64,000 nucleotides of DNA. Source: an uncultured Neomegalonema sp. Lineage in GTDB: Bacteria; Pseudomonadota; Alphaproteobacteria; Rhodobacterales; Rhodobacteraceae. The stretch is taken from assembly GCA_937995735.1 (NCBI GenBank), contig CALKIZ010000069.1, positions 1-64,000 of the forward strand, read 5' to 3'. The notes under the pieces were generated by a model. That model was not told the DNA's origin. It worked only from the letters and a program-made list of their open reading frames with translations, and made no database searches. Positions 49,357-64,000 of this stretch are shown here, piece by piece. Position 1 is the stretch's first letter; every line of letters begins with the position of its first letter. The position numbers and the translations under genes are program-made.

Positions 49357-50688
49357 TTATCGTTTCAGCAAAGGTAAAAGCGCGCCCATATCCGGCCCAT
49401 TGGAGCGCCCTGTCATTGCTTTACGCAGTGGCATAAAGAGGCCCTTACCTTTCCGTCCCGTCTCGGTTTTCAGCGCGTCGGTTACGGTTTTCCATGTCGT
49501 CTCATCCCATGGCTTCGCACCATCAAATGCGGCTTGAGCGGTGGTGACGAACTCGCGGTCTTCATCGGCAATGTCGGGGGTGATGTCGCCGGTAACGACT
49601 TTCCACCAATCAGAGATTTCGTCTGTCGAGGCGATGTTCTCTCTGATCAGCTCCCAGAATTTCGGCGCGATGGCCGTTTCTACACCCGCATCAGCAAGCA
49701 GCGGCGCGACGTCTTCGAACGGGCGCGTGTGCAGCATCTTGACGCCGAGCGCGTCGATTTCTTCGCGGTTAAAGCGCGCAGGCGCACGGCCAAGGGTATC
49801 GAGACTGAAGCCTTCGATAATCTCGGCATGGGTGGCGCGGGCTTCAATAGGCTCGGACGTGCCAAGACGCGCCATATAGGACAAAAGCGCCAGTGGATCG
49901 ACGCCGGCTTCGCGTAAAGACTCAAGGGTCAGTGATCCAAGGCGCTTTGACAGCCCCGAACCATCCGCATCAACCAGCAATGAATGGTGCGCAAAGCCGG
50001 TAGGCTTATCGCCCATTGCATCGAAGATTTGAATTTGCGTTGCCGTGTTGGTGACGTGATCTTCGCCCCGGATCACATCGGTAATACCGAAATCTATATC
50101 GTCACACACGCTACACAAAGTATAGAGAAATCCACCGTCTTCGCGGATCAGAACCGGATCGGATACCGACGCACAATCGACATTCACATCGCCGCGAATG
50201 CCGTCGGTCCAACTGGTCCGGGTTTGGTCGAGCTTGAAGCGCCAATGCGGTTTGCGGCCTTCGGCTTCTAACTTGGCCTTGTCTTCGTCAGTCAGATTCA
50301 GTGCGGCACGGTCGTACACTGGCGGCCTGCCCGATTGCAGGAGAGTTTTGCGTTTTAGGCCCAGTTCCGTGCCGGTTTCGTAGGCAGCATAGAGACGGCC
50401 TTGTGCGCGAAGCTCATCCGCAACGGCATTGTAGCGATCCATCCGCTCGGATTGGCGCTCGTACCGATCCCAATCGAGGCCGAGCCATTCGAGATCGCGT
50501 TTTACGGCATCGACGTACTCTTCTTTTGAGCGCTCGGCGTCCGTGTCATCAATCCGTAAAACAAATTGCCCACCGCCTTTGCGCGCATAAAGCCAGTTCA
50601 AAAGCGCCGGACGCAGATTGCCGACATGCAGCTTTCCCGTGGGCGAAGGAGCGAAGCGGGTAACAGGATTAGCACACATCAACGTCAT
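49357..50688 (-). CDS. gltX: Glutamyl-tRNA synthetase (ATG at 50688 or 50679)
   Basis: VTRFAPSPTGKLHVGNLRPALLNWLYAR (HIGH); GLSKRLGSLTLESLRE (KMSKS-equivalent). Confidence 0.95.
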   Translation of the reverse strand: MTLMCANPVTRFAPSPTGKLHVGNLRPALLNWLYARKGGGQFVLRIDDTDAERSKEEYVDAVKRDLEWLGLDWDRYERQSERMDRYNAVADELRAQGRLYAAYETGTELGLKRKTLLQSGRPPVYDRAALNLTDEDKAKLEAEGRKPHWRFKLDQTRTSWTDGIRGDVNVDCASVSDPVLIREDGGFLYTLCSVCDDIDFGITDVIRGEDHVTNTATQIQIFDAMGDKPTGFAHHSLLVDADGSGLSKRLGSLTLESLREAGVDPLALLSYMARLGTSEPIEARATHAEIIEGFSLDTLGRAPARFNREEIDALGVKMLHTRPFEDVAPLLADAGVETAIAPKFWELIRENIASTDEISDWWKVVTGDITPDIADEDREFVTTAQAAFDGAKPWDETTWKTVTDALKTETGRKGKGLFMPLRKAMTGRSNGPDMGALLPLLKR

Positions 50689-51049
50689 ACTTTCTGATTT
50701 GGGGATCGGTGGTCATCAAGGTCAGGCCCTCTGTCTGTGCCTGAGCAATAAGGGTGCGGTCAAATGGATCGCGGTGAATAAACGGAAGTTTCTCCACGGC
50801 TTTTGCATGATGCCATGTAAAGGGAAGCTCTAAAAAGCCAAGCTGTAAACATCGTTCATGCAAATCAAAACCTAAACTCATCTTACCGATAGATGTCTTG
50901 ATCGCGATTTCCAGCCTGGAAATGGCACTGACAAAGATTGGCATCCGAGGATCAGTCAGCAAAATATCATGGTTTTTGTTTCGACGCGGATCAGCAGCAA
51001 GCGCCCAAAGAACGACATGCGTATCAGCAAGGAACCCTGCCTCACTCAT
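50669..51049 (-). CDS. PIN-domain toxin, VapC-like
   Basis: FLADTHVVLWALAADPRR; AISRLEIAIKTSIGKM; HRDPFDRTLIAQAQTEGLTLMTTD. Confidence 0.92.
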   Translation of the reverse strand: MSEAGFLADTHVVLWALAADPRRNKNHDILLTDPRMPIFVSAISRLEIAIKTSIGKMSLGFDLHERCLQLGFLELPFTWHHAKAVEKLPFIHRDPFDRTLIAQAQTEGLTLMTTDPQIRKYDVDVC

Positions 51050-51302
51050 CAGGGTCGATGCCTTTTTCCATGGCTTCTAGGACTTCTGTTGGCGTTTCAT
51101 CAAAATCATCTGCCGTCCAAATCTGTCCTTTCATTGATCCAATAAGGTTCCGACGACGCTGTGACATAACCGGATCGCGCAGTTCGAGGACCGGTTTTCC
51201 GTGGCGGGTCACGGTGATTACCTCGCCTTTTTCAACGCGCTTCACCAATTCGGAAAGCTTTGCTTTTGCCTCGCTGAGTGTGATTTCCATGCGGCCCTCC
51301 AT
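51042..51302 (-). CDS. Phd/YefM-family antitoxin
   Basis: MEITLSEAKAKLSELVKRVEKGEVITVTRHGKPVLEL; 8-nt overlap with toxin. Confidence 0.92.
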   Translation of the reverse strand: MEGRMEITLSEAKAKLSELVKRVEKGEVITVTRHGKPVLELRDPVMSQRRRNLIGSMKGQIWTADDFDETPTEVLEAMEKGIDPDE

Positions 51303-56408: not shown

Positions 56409-56444
56409 AAAAGCCCTTCACGTTGCTAACGGTGAAGGGCTTTT
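56409..56444. terminator. Bidirectional Rho-independent terminator between the GcvT-like gene and the ACP operon
   Basis: AAAAGCCCTTCAC-GTTGCTAACG-GTGAAGGGCTTTT: 13-bp stem with A/T flanks. Confidence 0.88.
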
Positions 56445-56465: not shown

Positions 56466-56708
56466 TTAAGCTGCGACTGCAGACTCCAACGCGCCTTTCT
56501 CGATCAGCAAATTCCGCATATCGCCGAGATTTTGCATGGACGTTATTTCAGGCATCGTGAATTGCACTTCAAACGCAACCTCGACGGCCAGCATCAAGTC
56601 GATGTGGCGGGCGCTGTCCCAATTCGGTGTGTTCTTCGCATTCGAGTCATCCGACAAAATTGCCGGATCTATCGAAAGCACGTTGGCTATAACTTCATTC
56701 AGTTTCAT
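56466..56708 (-). CDS. Dedicated acyl/aminoacyl carrier protein
   Basis: MKLNEVIANVLSIDPAILSDDSNAKNTPNWDSARHIDLMLAVEVAFEVQFTMPEI; WDSARHIDLM is the 4'-phosphopantetheine Ser context. Confidence 0.9.
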   Translation of the reverse strand: MKLNEVIANVLSIDPAILSDDSNAKNTPNWDSARHIDLMLAVEVAFEVQFTMPEITSMQNLGDMRNLLIEKGALESAVAA

Positions 56709-56760
56709 TGTCTTACCCCTTAGTGTGATAGTCATTTCAGCTGTTTTCCAGCTCTTCGTT

Positions 56761-57975
56761 TTATCCGAAAATCCGATCACGAACAGCTTCGGGCCAGCGC
56801 ATCGGATCAAATCCATGCTGCGTAAAGGCTGCAAGAACCCAACGCTCAATACCCAGACCGACGCATCCCGTCGAAGCAGGCTTTCCCGTTGAAGCCGTAA
56901 TGTTGAATCTCTCGCCAAAGAAGCGGCCATGCATGTTCACAGAACCACATGCCATAGATTTTTTATGACCATCTTTATCAAGGACCGGAATCAGGATTTC
57001 GTTTTTCACTTCTTGTGCAGCTTGGAAGAATTTTTTCGAAGCAGACACAGTTGCGAAAAACGGATCGGTCGCGGTTTCGACTTTCATGTCGAGGTCAAAC
57101 GTCTTTGCAAGCCCTGTAACCAACGGAATTGCTTGTCGACGTTTCCGAGCGACGAACTCGTCAGACCCAACAAACACAATCTCGCGCACATTGAACTCAT
57201 AGAGGCGATCAAGACCGGAAGCGTTGCGGCTTTCATAGCGGAAAACGCGGCCAAGCCATGACACGACGAAACCAGCCTCATCAAAGGTCTTGCCTTCGAG
57301 TGTTGGATAGGCCGGGAAACATGCAGCAGGATTCAGACACATGCCGTCATGGTGGATATGCTCGGATGGTGGCAAGATCGCACCTTCGGAACAACTGTTC
57401 GCCACGCGGAAATCTTCGAGCGCATCGAAATCTTCCAGCACATTGCCTACAAATGTCGCTTGGTTTGGGTGGCTGTCGAAGTAACCGCATTTATGCAGCA
57501 CATCCGCGTCGATAAACCCCGGAAATTGCCCATCGACAGCATCGAAATGCTCTTCATAAAGCCTACCAGCAATCTCGTTTACAAGACGCGCTACTTTGAG
57601 AACAGGGCCGCTATAAGCAATTTGTCCTTTACCATAGTCATAAACCCAACCGCGCTTGATAAATTCTTCATTGACGCCGCTTTGATAAGGGCCGTCATCT
57701 TCACGCTCATTCTCGGAGTACGTCTTAATGTCAAAGCCAGTGCGTTGCTTGGCCATGACGGTCAGATAACGATGCGCTTTGTCAACGATTTCATCGGTAT
57801 GCTCAGCATCGCGAATATGCAAAACGGCTGTCTTACAATCGTCCGATACCGTAATACGTTCGAGGTGCGGCGATACGAATACTGACTCTTTTACGATGTC
57901 AGCCGCGACTTCCGGTTCAATTTGTTTTGGCAAATCGACCGTAACATCGACCGTGCCTGTCATCATCTGATTCAT
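56761..57975 (-). CDS. Amino acid--[carrier protein] ligase, class II aaRS-like (seryl-tRNA synthetase core paralogue without tRNA-binding domain)
   Basis: Motif 2-like GRVFRYESRNASGLDRLYEFNVREIVFVG; motif 3 GCVGLGIERWVLAAF; Cys-containing segments NSCSEGAILPPSEHIHHDGMCLNPAACFPAY; ACGSVNMHGRFFGERFNI. Confidence 0.88.
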   Translation of the reverse strand: MNQMMTGTVDVTVDLPKQIEPEVAADIVKESVFVSPHLERITVSDDCKTAVLHIRDAEHTDEIVDKAHRYLTVMAKQRTGFDIKTYSENEREDDGPYQSGVNEEFIKRGWVYDYGKGQIAYSGPVLKVARLVNEIAGRLYEEHFDAVDGQFPGFIDADVLHKCGYFDSHPNQATFVGNVLEDFDALEDFRVANSCSEGAILPPSEHIHHDGMCLNPAACFPAYPTLEGKTFDEAGFVVSWLGRVFRYESRNASGLDRLYEFNVREIVFVGSDEFVARKRRQAIPLVTGLAKTFDLDMKVETATDPFFATVSASKKFFQAAQEVKNEILIPVLDKDGHKKSMACGSVNMHGRFFGERFNITASTGKPASTGCVGLGIERWVLAAFTQHGFDPMRWPEAVRDRIFG

Positions 57976-58116
57976 CTTGGTTCCCCTTATTAGCCCCACA
58001 GCAATGTCCCGTTGCCGTGGTGCTTTTCCCCTGCCTCGCATATCAAACGACGGAGCAGTCCTTTTTATTTCGCGCCCAACAACACAGATGCGCGCATTAG
58101 TCCAACCTCAAGCCCT

Positions 58117-59634
58117 CTAAAATTTGTAATAGAGGAAGTTTCCATTATCGCCGAGCGAGGTAAACGCGATTACCAGCATCACAGCGGCAATCAGTGCCCA
58201 AACAGCCGTCGGCTGCCATCTGATCACGCTCGCGCTGCTTGAAACGCTTTCTTCGTCATCACAGCTTACCCAGTGGGTGCGAAGAATTTCTTGACTGTTT
58301 GGCGCACACATCACGATTGCACCGAGAACGCCGATCATTGCCAATGTCGAATAGACATCAAGCGTGACAGTATCAATGGTTTGTACGCCTTCGAAGATCG
58401 CATTCAGACCAAACATGCTCGTGAGCATCGTACCCGCAACTGACAAATCAGGAGAGCGGAAGATAACGAGGCCGACAACGACGACCATCATCGTTAGCAA
58501 CCAACCAACTTCGCGGCCAACGTCGCCCATTTGGAAATGACGCCACCCGTGGTTCACAGCTAAAGCCAAACCATGTAGCAAGCCATAAGCAACGAACGTC
58601 CAGCCTGCACCATGCCAGACACCAGCGAGAACGAAGGTATACGTCACCGGCACTGCACTGGCTGTCAGCCAGCGGTGGAAAGGGCTATATTGGCCGTGCA
58701 TCGCTCTGCGCGTGTTGGTCATCGCCATGGGCGTATAGAGGTACGTGGTAAAGAACCGCGTCATCGTCATGTGCCAACGGCGCCAGAAATCCGAGATGCT
58801 CGTCGCTTTGAAAGGCGAGTTGAAGTTCAATGGCAGCTTGAGGCCAAAGATATATCCCAACCCGACGGCCATATCCGAATAACCCGAGAAATCGAAATAG
58901 AGTTGCAACGTGTAAGCCAGCGACCCCATCCATGCGTTAAGCATGTCGATGCCAGCACCCAAAGCAACGCCATCAAAAGCAAAGTCGGCATATGGCGCAA
59001 TTGAGTCTGCCAAGATGACCTTTTTGAAAAGACCAATCCCGAACATCGTCAAACCGACCGAAAGCGCCGCCGTCGAAAAAGCCGGACCTTGCTTGTCTTC
59101 CATTTGCGGAAAGATTTCACGTTGCAGCAGAAGCGGACCCGCAGTCACGACAGGGAAGAAAGTGGCAAACAGCGAATATTTTGCAAAGCCCACTTTACCC
59201 GCTTGCCCGGAATTGCTTTCCAGCAAAAACCCGATTTGCGTAAAGGTAAAGAACGAGACGCCCACAGGAACAATGATGTTCAGGTGTGAAAAGCCTGCTC
59301 CTCCAACCGAATTGGCGATGTCGATGAAGAAATTCGTATACTTGAAATAACCCAGCGCGAAGACGTTTGCGGCAACAGCAAATGCCGTCATCCATCCAGA
59401 AGCTTTTCCTTTTTCGCGCATCCCCCGAATGACATTTGCCGCTAAAAAGTTCAGAACGACCGACGCCACAAGAATTGCAGCAAGCAAGGGGCTGAATTGT
59501 GCATAGAAGACCAGCGAGGCAATCGCGAGGTAGGGATATACTGCCCCCCAACCCATGAACCGATGTACGGCCAGAAAGCCCAAATACACAAGCGGAAGGA
59601 AGACAAGAATAAATTGGAACGTATTGAAAGCCAT
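58117..59634 (-). CDS. MBOAT family O-acyltransferase (DltB/AlgI-like)
   Basis: YFDFSGYSDMAVGLGYIFGLKLPLNFNSPFKATSISDFWRRWHMTMTRFFTTYLY; AGVWHGAGWTFVAYGLLHG; ends FLYYKF. Confidence 0.94.
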   Translation of the reverse strand: MAFNTFQFILVFLPLVYLGFLAVHRFMGWGAVYPYLAIASLVFYAQFSPLLAAILVASVVLNFLAANVIRGMREKGKASGWMTAFAVAANVFALGYFKYTNFFIDIANSVGGAGFSHLNIIVPVGVSFFTFTQIGFLLESNSGQAGKVGFAKYSLFATFFPVVTAGPLLLQREIFPQMEDKQGPAFSTAALSVGLTMFGIGLFKKVILADSIAPYADFAFDGVALGAGIDMLNAWMGSLAYTLQLYFDFSGYSDMAVGLGYIFGLKLPLNFNSPFKATSISDFWRRWHMTMTRFFTTYLYTPMAMTNTRRAMHGQYSPFHRWLTASAVPVTYTFVLAGVWHGAGWTFVAYGLLHGLALAVNHGWRHFQMGDVGREVGWLLTMMVVVVGLVIFRSPDLSVAGTMLTSMFGLNAIFEGVQTIDTVTLDVYSTLAMIGVLGAIVMCAPNSQEILRTHWVSCDDEESVSSSASVIRWQPTAVWALIAAVMLVIAFTSLGDNGNFLYYKF

Positions 59635-59637
59635 CGA

Positions 59638-60885
59638 TTATGATCCCTTCAATGCCGTCAGCTGCTCAACCTTATCGAGCACAAGAAACTGCTTGATAAT
59701 TTTTCCGAGGCAAACCGAATTCGAATGCTCACCGTCAATGTACATATCTGATGTACATCCCGTTTTTGCCGGATCAAAACCACCGATGATTGGCATATCG
59801 TATTTTGCACTCCACTCGCGGGTCATATTACGGATATCTTCGATACCGTCCATGTAGGGCGAGCCTTGCACCGCGTCCCAATAGATGGGGTTAAACGGCG
59901 GGTGTGCGAGGTAAACTTTGACGCCTTGATCCTTCAGGAAAGCAAGCATCGCATCCACGGATTGGCGGCCAACAGGATCAATACCCGGTGCATTCGGACG
60001 CTGTGCATACGCATGTGATAACGCTTCAGCGCGGGCGCGTTCTGGCGTAAATGCTTGCTGGTGCAGTGTTGACCAGGTAATCGAACCGTCCGGATGCAAA
60101 GTATCCAAAGTCGGATGGCTCTTCAGGTCCGTTGATTGAGGCGCAACAGGAGACTTAAGATAACGTTCAACATTGGCCTTCAGCAACGGCAATGAAATTT
60201 TTTGCCTGAGCTGTGGCGTTAAACCATTTGGATAGTAATCCATAACCGGCAGATTCAGGCGCATCGCCATCTCTTGATAGTCCCGCATGATCGGAACCCA
60301 GAGCCAATCTGTCCGCTTATGGAATGGCTTGAACTGATTATCCCGGATCGTAATAATCATTTTCTTTGGCAGCTTGCCAACGCGAACAAACATATTCGAG
60401 ACACCAAGAATGTCTTCGAAGTAATCGCGATGAACATGCGCATTAAACGCTTTCATATTTCCGGCAAGGGATGCCGGTGCTTCCTGCCAGTGGCTTGCCC
60501 CGAGAATAGCCATTTCAGGAACTTCAGCCAAACCTTCAATCAAGGACCGCTTTAGCAAACGTGTTTCGATGTTAAGGTCATACGTCAGATAGTTCTTGCC
60601 AGACGCGAGAATCTTCCCAACACTTTCAATTTTTGTATCGTCGTTCAGAACAGGTGCAAGCTGTTTATTTGCATTGTAAATTCCCGTCAACCCGATCACA
60701 AACAGCATCGCCATAAGTAAAACGTATTTTACACCAGACTCGCCGTGACCTAAGTGTGCCTCAGCTTCTTTTGTAATCAGTTCGCGTTCGGCGCGATCAG
60801 ACTCGCGCTGACCATTTTCCGCACGCGGGAGTATCCGACGATCTTCATGAACACGTTTGCGCTCGCCAGCCGCAGTTAATTCCAT
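59638..60885 (-). CDS. DltD/AlgJ-AlgX-like SGNH-type membrane-anchored protein
   Basis: Single TM YVLLMAMLFVIGLTGIY; EMAILGASHWQEA Ser motif; YIDGEHSNSVCLGKIIKQF Asp/His block; 3 nt between its stop and nothing else, adjacent to MBOAT start (59634). Confidence 0.8.
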   Translation of the reverse strand: MELTAAGERKRVHEDRRILPRAENGQRESDRAERELITKEAEAHLGHGESGVKYVLLMAMLFVIGLTGIYNANKQLAPVLNDDTKIESVGKILASGKNYLTYDLNIETRLLKRSLIEGLAEVPEMAILGASHWQEAPASLAGNMKAFNAHVHRDYFEDILGVSNMFVRVGKLPKKMIITIRDNQFKPFHKRTDWLWVPIMRDYQEMAMRLNLPVMDYYPNGLTPQLRQKISLPLLKANVERYLKSPVAPQSTDLKSHPTLDTLHPDGSITWSTLHQQAFTPERARAEALSHAYAQRPNAPGIDPVGRQSVDAMLAFLKDQGVKVYLAHPPFNPIYWDAVQGSPYMDGIEDIRNMTREWSAKYDMPIIGGFDPAKTGCTSDMYIDGEHSNSVCLGKIIKQFLVLDKVEQLTALKGS

Positions 60886-61003: not shown

Positions 61004-62485
61004 TCATGGTGTGGCCACCTGCTCTCTGTCAGGTGAATGAATGTCCACACTCAGGGGCGGAAGCGTAATAAATACCGCCGTTCCTTCGCCAATCATCGTT
61101 TCGATGCTAACATTGGCGTTATGATGCCTCGCTACGGATTTGACAATTGGAAGACCAAGACCTGTCCCTTCATGGCTGCGGTCTAAAGAGTCATCCAGTT
61201 GAACAAAAGGAACAAAGGCTCTATCAACTTTTTCAGGGTCCATCCCTACGCCGTGATCGCGCACACATAGCGAAGCGCTTCCGTTTTCAAGCGCATAAAG
61301 TGTTACTTCGACACTGCCGCCTTCATAGGAAAATTCAATCGCGTTGCTGAGAAGGTTAGTAAGAATCTGGCGTAACCCCATCTGGTCGCCAAAAAGACTT
61401 ATAATCTGTGGATCAATCGTAAATTCAATAGTAACGTTTCGCCGCGAAGCCGCACTCGCGACCTTTGCGATCGACGCCTTAATCAAACCATCGATTTCAA
61501 AAATGCGTTCTCTATTACAAGAATACTCGCCCGACTCCAATTTTGAATATGAAAGCACGTCTTCGATTAGCGATAATAAATGCGTACCGCTCTCATGGAT
61601 TTGCCCGGCACAGTCTTTGGGATTCAGCGCATCAGTCCCGGACAAAATTAAGTCCGAATATCCGATAATGCTATGTAAGGGTGTCCGAAGCTCATGCGAT
61701 ATATTTGAAAGAAACGCAGACTTTGCGCGACTGGCCGCCTGAGCGTCATTGCGCGCTTGGATCATGGTTTCTTCAAGGGCTTTTTGCTCGGTGATATCCA
61801 GCACAAATACAACGGCACCGCCGGATGGAACGGTGTTTAGTCGCAATTCAAAAATATGCCCATCGGGGCACACGACCGAAACAGTTTGCGAAAGCTCCAG
61901 ATCCAATAACGCAGCAATTTTTTCGAGCGTTATGTCTGCTTTATTTTTGATAAAGTTTGAATCAAAGCGATCAATGAAAAAGTCGAATAAGTGGTTCGAC
62001 ATCGTTAGTTTCCGGCTCGCATCAAATGCGGCAATACCTGCCCCTGTATTTTCGAGCGTGGTTTCCAGAAACCCGGTTTTTTCTGCCAACGCCTTCATCG
62101 AAGCGGCATTTGCAATCGCGTATCGGATCGTACGATCAAGTGTCGTCGAGCTTAATTCAGATTTATCCAAAAAATCAGCTGCACCGGCTTCTGTCGCGGC
62201 AACGTCGATATCCCGTTGGCCAACGCCCGTAAGCAAAACCATCGGAATTTGAGTCCCTTTAGCTTTAACGCCCGCAAGAAATTCCAGTCCGGTATGACCG
62301 CCAATCCGATAATCGACCAAGCAAATATCCAAGCCACCTGCATCTATCAGGGCCATACCTTCTTCGTAATTATCCACCCAGTGAAGGTTTAACTTTCTAC
62401 CCGGAATTTCTTCAAGAAATTCGCGCGTGATTAAGTAATCATCCTCATCATCCTCGACGAGAAGTATGCTCCATTCATCAGCCAT
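61004..62485 (-). CDS. Response regulator-PAS-histidine kinase (REC-PAS-HisKA-HATPase)
   Basis: SILLVEDDEDDYLITREFLEEIPG REC; SKSAFLSNISHELRTPLHSIIGYSDLI HisKA; GTGLGLPIVKSVARHH HATPase. Confidence 0.93.
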   Translation of the reverse strand: MADEWSILLVEDDEDDYLITREFLEEIPGRKLNLHWVDNYEEGMALIDAGGLDICLVDYRIGGHTGLEFLAGVKAKGTQIPMVLLTGVGQRDIDVAATEAGAADFLDKSELSSTTLDRTIRYAIANAASMKALAEKTGFLETTLENTGAGIAAFDASRKLTMSNHLFDFFIDRFDSNFIKNKADITLEKIAALLDLELSQTVSVVCPDGHIFELRLNTVPSGGAVVFVLDITEQKALEETMIQARNDAQAASRAKSAFLSNISHELRTPLHSIIGYSDLILSGTDALNPKDCAGQIHESGTHLLSLIEDVLSYSKLESGEYSCNRERIFEIDGLIKASIAKVASAASRRNVTIEFTIDPQIISLFGDQMGLRQILTNLLSNAIEFSYEGGSVEVTLYALENGSASLCVRDHGVGMDPEKVDRAFVPFVQLDDSLDRSHEGTGLGLPIVKSVARHHNANVSIETMIGEGTAVFITLPPLSVDIHSPDREQVATP

Positions 62486-62495
62486 GCGGTCCACC

Positions 62496-62963
62496 CTATG
62501 CAACGTGCGTCGTGCATTCGGGCGGAAGCGCCACAATTTCAATCCAATAAGCGCCGATCGTCTTAACGACCTCAACCAACCCGTCAAACGTCACCGGCTT
62601 GGTGATAAATGAACTGACACCAAGACCATATGTGCGCAGGATGTCTTCTTCCGCCTTTGACGTGGTGAGGACAATCACAGGAATGCGGCACAGCTCCGGG
62701 TCTTCTTTGATTTTACCAAGCGCGGTACGTCCGCACATTTTCGGCATATTCAAATCAAGTAAAATCACGCCCGGATAAGGTTCATCGCGCAACTTCTCGA
62801 AGCCGCCCTCTCTGCGAAGATATTGCAACAACTGTTCGCCATCTTCGACAAAATGAAGTGGATTTTTTAAACAGCTTTCGTCAAAAGCATCCTCGATGAG
62901 CATCCGGTCATCTGCATCATCGTCAGCAACTAAAATTGTTATTGGTGTACCTTCACGTGCCAT
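62496..62963 (-). CDS. Response regulator (Rcp1-like single REC domain)
   Basis: ILVADDDADDRMLIEDAFDES; GVILLDLNMPKMCGRTAL; VIVLTTSKAEED. Confidence 0.93.
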   Translation of the reverse strand: MAREGTPITILVADDDADDRMLIEDAFDESCLKNPLHFVEDGEQLLQYLRREGGFEKLRDEPYPGVILLDLNMPKMCGRTALGKIKEDPELCRIPVIVLTTSKAEEDILRTYGLGVSSFITKPVTFDGLVEVVKTIGAYWIEIVALPPECTTHVA

Positions 62964-64000
62964 GATTACGACCCCCCATAGAATTATTCTGACTTTGATT
63001 GTGTTTTACTCTTAACATCGCAGTAAAGGTTGCCCCTTTTCCTTCGACGCCGTTTGCATCGATTTCGCCGCCGTGGCGCTCGACAATTTTGCGACACGTC
63101 GCAAGACCGATTCCAGTGCCCTCATAGTCATTGCGACCGTGTAAGCGTTGGAAGATTGTGAAAATTTGATCTTTATAACGGTTGTCGAAACCAATGCCGT
63201 TATCGGCAACCGACAACTCTATCATATCCGGAACACCAGAGATAAAGTCACCCTTAATCAGGCGGGACGAAACAGCAACGACAGGAGCCACACCTTCCCG
63301 CTGAAATTTTAGCGCGTTTCCAATCAGGTTTTGAAGCAACTGCCTCATTTGTGTGCCGTCTGCTTCGATTATATGCAAGTCTTTGAAATTGACGGTTGCT
63401 CCAACTTCTTCCATACGAATTTGCAGGTCTGATAAAACTCCGCTCACGACTTTATTCAGATCAAGTTCGGCAAACGGTTTTGCCTTCGTCGTGATCCGCG
63501 AGTAGTTAAGAAGGTCGTTGATGAGCAGTCGCATCCGCCCGGTCGCATTTTGCATTCGTTCGATATAAAGAGTGGCATTCTCAGGCAGGTCGTCCGCATA
63601 TTTATTTTTCAACCGGTCGCCGAATGTCTCGATCTTACGAAGAGGCTCTTGCAAGTCATGCGAAGCTACATAGGCAAAATCTTGAAGTTCACGGTTACTT
63701 GCTTCTAACTTGCGTGTGTATTGCTTCAGGTTTTCCGCATTCCGCTCCAACTCGGTGACATCTTCATACGTCGCGATTGATCCGCCATCGGGCATCGGTT
63801 GATTCTTTACCGCGATGATCCGCCCATCCCGGAGGTATTGTTTGAGAACAGTCTGTTCTCTGTTACGAGCTGCTTCCGGCCGCTCCGCTTTGGCGCGTTC
63901 CGCGTCTTCATGCGTATAGTTTCCGATGCCGATCGAGTATTCCATGATTTCAGAGAGCTTAATGCCCGGCTTCACCACATCAGGCGAAAATCCGTAAAGT
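62953..64000 (-). CDS. PAS-domain sensor histidine kinase, truncated by the right window edge
   Basis: Frame stays open to 64000 (LYGFSPDVVKPGIKLSEIMEYSIG...); YVASHDLQEPLRKIETFGDRL; GTGIGLATCRKIVERHGG. Confidence 0.92.
   Translation of the reverse strand, partial: LYGFSPDVVKPGIKLSEIMEYSIGIGNYTHEDAERAKAERPEAARNREQTVLKQYLRDGRIIAVKNQPMPDGGSIATYEDVTELERNAENLKQYTRKLEASNRELQDFAYVASHDLQEPLRKIETFGDRLKNKYADDLPENATLYIERMQNATGRMRLLINDLLNYSRITTKAKPFAELDLNKVVSGVLSDLQIRMEEVGATVNFKDLHIIEADGTQMRQLLQNLIGNALKFQREGVAPVVAVSSRLIKGDFISGVPDMIELSVADNGIGFDNRYKDQIFTIFQRLHGRNDYEGTGIGLATCRKIVERHGGEIDANGVEGKGATFTAMLRVKHNQSQNNSMGGRNHGT

Follow-up and report, generated by a model that had tools for sequence, protein, structure and literature searches.

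A candidate carrier-fed, dlt-like route for envelope aminoacylation with a tRNA synthetase-like loader in an uncultured Neomegalonema

What might an amino acid ligase related to the tRNA synthetases, a stand-alone carrier protein and a pair of envelope acyltransferases do together in one operon? The question is raised by four genes at positions 56466-60885 of a 64,000-nucleotide stretch of DNA from an uncultured Neomegalonema sp., an alphaproteobacterium (contig CALKIZ010000069.1, positions 1 to 64,000; hereafter the window). In order of transcription they encode an SGNH-fold protein, an MBOAT acyltransferase, a class-II aminoacyl-tRNA synthetase (aaRS)-like amino acid:[carrier protein] ligase and a carrier. 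According to a 2022 review, what aaRS-derived amino acid:carrier ligases do in the cell is unknown (PMC9437257), and a 2025 paper stated that MBOAT-SGNH pathways other than dlt lack a carrier protein (PMC12148441). We consider it highly likely that the four genes encode a carrier-fed route for aminoacylation of the envelope, dlt-like in its working and assembled from other parts.

All four genes are intact open reading frames (ORFs) on the minus strand, in the order and with the short gaps that a previous, sequence-only reading of this DNA had described; the gaps measure 3 nt between the SGNH and MBOAT genes, 141 nt between the MBOAT and ligase genes, and 52 nt between the ligase and carrier genes. 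The operon is closed by the 13-bp-stem terminator which that reading had also located, an intrinsic terminator with a T run (56409-56444, minus strand; arms AAAAGCCCTTCAC-(loop)-GTGAAGGGCTTTT) that is convergent with a GcvT-like gene on the plus strand; our automated pattern search, with its loop limit of 8, omits it. For the ligase we prefer the start at MNQMM (57975), which is preceded by an AAGGGG ribosome site, over the longer ORF start, and for the carrier the start at MKLNEV (56708), preceded by AGGGG. A promoter scan of the locus gave a signal at background level only. Strong purifying selection acts on all four genes, with dN/dS against the closest relative of about 0.04 for the SGNH protein, 0.04 for the MBOAT, 0.03 for the ligase and 0.10 for the carrier (range 0.025-0.095). 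Given these low values and the presence of the complete cassette in ten genomes, the cassette is not a chance association; this conservation, together with recurrence of the genes in other arrangements, rules out a chance neighbourhood.

The proposal that an aaRS-like ligase is paired here with a dedicated carrier is supported by both gene products. The best NCBIfam match of the ligase (56761-57975, minus strand; 404 aa) is PRK07080, 'amino acid--[ACP] ligase' (1.3e-47), with archaeal-type seryl-tRNA synthetase (SerRS) as the runner-up (4.6e-46). A phmmer search of the PDB returned the SerRS of M. kandleri (3W3S; 6.6e-34) and Bradyrhizobium Bll0957 (3MEY; 6.3e-31), a glycine:carrier ligase that has been solved with its carrier (4H2S). 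The structure model of the ligase also matches the SerRS and Bll0957 structures, with a TM-score of about 0.78 normalised to Bll0957. A domain of approximately 90 residues (1-90; beta-alpha-beta-beta-alpha-beta) is retained ahead of the class-II core, and from residue 30 onwards the protein aligns with the archaeal SerRS model. The ligase is not the cell's own SerRS, as a separate, ordinary SerRS elsewhere in the genome rules this out. Cys219, Glu265 and Cys371 are invariant in our alignment (A1) and align with the zinc ligands of Bll0957, which we take to be C131, E176 and C279. The window ligase has in common with the Bll0957-type enzymes the class-II core, the zinc ligands and a neighbouring stand-alone carrier, but differs in forming a separate clade, in apparently retaining an N-terminal domain and in its linkage to an MBOAT and an SGNH protein. 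The carrier (56466-56708, minus strand; 80 aa) gives only a weak match to acyl carrier protein (ACP) models (5.6e-5); however, Ser32 of its D-S motif, the predicted site of phosphopantetheine attachment, is invariant in 14/14 carriers, and its gene adjoins that of the ligase in every complete copy of the cassette. By analogy, the amino acid loaded is most likely glycine or alanine, since the characterised relative uses glycine, with serine possible due to the kinship with SerRS.

The MBOAT (58117-59634, minus strand; 505 aa) scores 75.7 bits against the Pfam MBOAT model (cut-off 27) and is the only Pfam MBOAT in the source genome. It carries the WHG histidine (His341) and ends in the motif FLYYKF (F500-L-Y502-Y-K-F505). 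An FXYXXF-type C-terminus is present in all 55 of the MBOATs surveyed. In PatA, the tyrosine of this motif is the site of auto-acetylation, DltX has the same motif, and an acyl-tyrosine shuttle has been proposed to be general (PMC12148441). The SGNH protein (59638-60885, minus strand; 415 aa) has no match in Pfam, NCBIfam or PDB sequence searches. Its assignment comes from an AlphaFold model (pLDDT 81), in which one N-terminal transmembrane helix (residues about 49-76) is followed by a periplasmic domain with the SGNH fold, and for which Foldseek returned sialate O-acetylesterases (SGNH esterases), DltD and PatB. Ser131, Asp384 and His387, together with Cys377 and Cys392, are invariant in 13 homologues. 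The two proteins therefore have the features of an MBOAT-SGNH pair: His341 and the F500-F505 motif in the MBOAT, and an adjoining SGNH protein with Ser131, Asp384 and His387. Like the PatA/PatB-type acetyltransferases, they combine the MBOAT histidine, a C-terminal FXYXXF and a membrane-anchored SGNH partner.

Could the operon be dlt in the strict sense, acquired from Gram-positive bacteria by descent or transfer and loading D-alanine? DltB (LTA_dltB) is the top NCBIfam match of the MBOAT and DltD appears in the Foldseek list. However, the DltB score of 183 bits is half of the cut-off of 375, and in our tree the solved DltB falls outside all of the MBOATs as a distant outgroup (a partial sequence on a long branch), whereas the window MBOAT groups among proteobacterial exopolysaccharide-type MBOATs. 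The SGNH protein lacks a DltD family match, and its full-length alignments with DltD reach TM-scores of only about 0.32-0.40, so that the likeness is one of fold and not of family membership. Neither the four genes nor the flanking genes that we scanned gave an AMP-binding Pfam match, as would mark DltA, and among the listed ORFs, of 60 aa or more, there is no small gene for a separate DltX with FXYXXF between the four genes. We consider a true dlt operon extremely improbable; the DltB and DltD family scores and the tree rule it out. The 'DltB-like' and 'DltD-like' labels of the sequence-only reading thus hold for the way the proteins would work but not for their descent.

What our comparison supports is an operon that works like dlt without being a dlt operon by membership. 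The Gram-positive Dlt system (DltA, DltB, DltC, DltD and DltX), which D-alanylates teichoic acids, likewise combines a loader, a dedicated carrier, an MBOAT, an SGNH protein, an FXYXXF shuttle and a proposed aminoacyl thioester donor, and the 80-aa protein gives the window operon its own dedicated phosphopantetheine carrier. In contrast to Dlt, the loader is a class-II aaRS-like ligase rather than an AMP-binding enzyme, the shuttle motif is fused to the MBOAT rather than borne by DltX, the host is Gram-negative, and neither the MBOAT nor the SGNH protein is an orthologue of DltB or DltD. Carrier-based aminoacylation of a Gram-negative envelope has a precedent in the glycylation of lipid A by AlmEFG of Vibrio cholerae, which employs the adenylation-type enzyme AlmE and a non-MBOAT transferase, AlmG.

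If the operon works in this way, its genes should be kept together. Surveys by genome scan and by class, genus, order and phylum identified 15 genomes that retain a cassette of the window type in full or as a remnant; ten of them hold the full set (the window, L003-L008, L010, L039 and L054), including members of another family (L039, genome G184) and another genus (L054, G406). Three further copies are interrupted by contig ends alone (G396, split between L002 and L056; L011; L012). This neighbourhood survey of the ligase family, which had been suggested as a check, found the four genes conserved together and left the dlt-like reading standing. Several observations nevertheless weigh against this reading. 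Two members of the genus break the set (loci L117 and L118): G389 keeps the ligase and carrier, but its cassette lacks the MBOAT and SGNH genes and neither is detectable in its genome, from which it follows that the ligase-carrier pair can persist alone, and G398 keeps the MBOAT and SGNH genes while the ligase has decayed and the carrier is gone. The majority of the ligase relatives, L042-L053 and those on Rhizobiales plasmids among them, have no MBOAT nearby; these more typical ligases lie beside acyl-CoA dehydrogenase and DUF1839 genes (in Rhizobiales with an ACP too) or in clusters resembling those of non-ribosomal peptide synthetases (NRPS) and polyketide synthases. Furthermore, the window ligase scores 162 bits against a curated NCBIfam cut-off of 357 for amino acid-[ACP] ligases, and so belongs to a distinct subfamily.

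Other ligase relatives were seen in different settings. In another proteobacterial group a polysaccharide deacetylase, a carrier ligase and a GNAT protein stand in a row, with no carrier detected beside them (L123:5669-9190; L121), and a third clade has full-length carrier ligases with an adjacent carrier and no MBOAT (L122, L124, L126, L128, L130 and L131; G435 and others). Three consecutive genes on a plasmid of the honeybee-associated Apilactobacillus kunkeei comprise a small ORF, a homologue of the carrier ligases and a D-Ala-D-Ala-ligase-like gene (L059:7670-10318).

The half-losses in G389 and G398, each of which retains one half of the cassette, are what one would expect if the MBOAT and SGNH protein acetylated a polymer from acetyl-CoA while the ligase and carrier served a separate pathway, such as the synthesis of a small aminoacyl-derived metabolite, and were neighbours only. 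PatA does use acetyl-CoA (PMC12148441), and the nearest carrier-less relatives of the window MBOAT, from the same genus, are encoded in polysaccharide clusters, where heparinase-like and glycosyltransferase genes are their neighbours. However, the presence of a carrier and its loader inside the operon, a difference from PatA, argues for a donor other than an acyl-CoA. We retrieved forty more MBOAT loci from alphaproteobacteria. In the MBOAT tree, the window protein belongs to a clade (support 100/99) whose sampled members are carrier-linked in 15 of 15 rows; one of these, L174, had been scored 'none' by our script solely because the FkbH and carrier genes of this locus are on the other strand. 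The residue three positions before WHG is other than glycine in 17/17 carrier-linked MBOATs but is glycine in 35 of the 38 others (Fisher p 1.7e-11, a value that overstates independence as the rows are related), and is also a non-glycine, methionine, in the DltB sequence. A non-glycine residue at this position might serve to recognise carrier-fed MBOATs from their sequence. In addition, the linkage of ligase, MBOAT, SGNH protein and carrier recurs in other arrangements and other clades, and an SGNH-MBOAT-carrier trio recurs with another loader in an actinobacterium, as described below. We therefore regard the acetyl-CoA explanation as unlikely.

Within the carrier-linked clade the loading enzyme varies and may be FkbH, an NRPS adenylation domain or an aaRS-like ligase. 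An FkbH-like protein accompanies a carrier and an MBOAT in nine alphaproteobacterial loci, including that of Rhodobacteraceae SC52 (L141, L148, L151, L153, L157, L164, L167, L174 and L175), which suggests that glyceryl-type groups are moved by carrier-fed MBOATs there. In the actinobacterium Nonomuraea gerenzanensis (L139), genes for an SGNH protein, an MBOAT, a carrier, an NRPS-type protein (condensation and AMP-binding domains) and a phosphopantetheinyl transferase follow in order; the SGNH protein and MBOAT are 30% and 41% identical to those of the window, and in the tree this MBOAT is the sister of those linked to a ligase. The Nonomuraea cluster thus has the homologous trio but an adenylation-domain loader in place of the aaRS-like ligase, a near-literal version of the swap that the sequence-only reading had envisaged when it described DltA as replaced by a tRNA synthetase paralogue. 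In the literature searched, which left most subscription papers outside its coverage, we found no description of the Nonomuraea cluster or of operons joining the ligase, or FkbH, with an MBOAT. No carrier was found with the MBOAT-SGNH relatives on Subdoligranulum and Pseudomonas plasmids. Taken together, we think it probable that a distinct and hitherto undescribed MBOAT clade of Gram-negative and some other bacteria is fed by a carrier rather than by CoA, with interchangeable loaders (aaRS-like ligases for amino acids, FkbH for glyceryl groups and NRPS adenylation domains), so that one export machine would decorate envelope polymers with varied small acids and would give the aaRS-like ligases a physiological role.

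Carrier, ligase and MBOAT are also brought together outside this clade. In G374 and G184 (L040/L041), the genes follow a second arrangement, carrier-ligase-GNAT-MBOAT-SGNH, with a ligase and an MBOAT of other clades, and since these MBOATs lie outside the carrier-linked clade, their carrier coupling probably had a separate origin. A divergent cluster (L120, G518) encodes a carrier, an SGNH-like protein (weak DUF1574 match), a ligase and an MBOAT, again of other clades. The GNAT acyltransferase between ligase and MBOAT in the second arrangement, as well as the occurrence of ligase relatives with acyl-CoA dehydrogenases, raises the possibility that the carrier-bound amino acid is first dehydrogenated, N-acylated or similarly altered, in which case the exported group would be a derivative and the ester would not be cationic. 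In contrast, the window operon consists of four genes up to its terminator and includes no modifying enzyme, and we consider this alternative improbable, slightly more so than transfer from acetyl-CoA.

Based on these observations, we propose a model for carrier-fed envelope aminoacylation in which the predicted catalytic residues for every step are present: the zinc ligands of the ligase, Ser32 of the carrier, His341 and FLYYKF of the MBOAT, and Ser131, Asp384 and His387 of the SGNH protein. First, as in its characterised homologues, the ligase would activate a small amino acid at the expense of ATP and load it as a thioester onto the phosphopantetheine of the carrier. By analogy with known MBOATs, the MBOAT would then accept this aminoacyl group at the cytoplasmic face and, by means of its catalytic histidine, pass it through a membrane tunnel to Tyr502 of the shuttle motif. 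Finally, the membrane-anchored SGNH protein would accept the group on Ser131, as its homologues suggest, and transfer it to a hydroxyl group on a polymer of the periplasm or cell surface, forming an ester and adding positive charge. The acceptor may be an exopolysaccharide, a tentative suggestion prompted by the polysaccharide genes beside the carrier-less MBOATs of the same genus and by the cyclic di-GMP (c-di-GMP) proteins that adjoin the cassette in relatives.

Expression of the operon is probably controlled by an upstream phosphorelay, accompanied in some relatives by c-di-GMP proteins, as the gene neighbourhood suggests. Directly upstream of the SGNH gene, and conserved with the cassette, is a receiver-PAS-HisKA-HATPase hybrid sensor kinase (61004-62587), preceded by a conserved single-domain response regulator (62496-62963) and a conserved PAS-HisKA-HATPase sensor kinase (62953-63978) whose start probably lies beyond the end of the window (the L055 counterpart has 681 aa); all three are on the minus strand. 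The same three genes precede SGNH in most copies for which upstream sequence is available. In G184, a receiver domain and the SGNH protein are encoded in one ORF (L039:4728-6431), a fusion that links the upstream phosphorelay with the acyltransferase. A receiver-GGDEF protein lies directly downstream of the carrier in two loci (L010:9523-11568, with EAL; L012:2570-3502), pointing to control by c-di-GMP. Elsewhere in the window, overlapping small genes at 50669-51302 resemble, by eye only, a PIN-type toxin and its antitoxin.

The operon joins the two statements from the literature with which we began, that on the role of the ligases (PMC9437257) and that on MBOAT-SGNH pathways without a carrier (PMC12148441), and both the role of the ligase and the feeding of an MBOAT by a carrier become testable by reconstitution of four proteins. 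If our model is correct, the aaRS-like carrier ligase family would gain its first concrete cellular role and a destination for its amino acid, and a new envelope ester would be predicted in Gram-negative bacteria.

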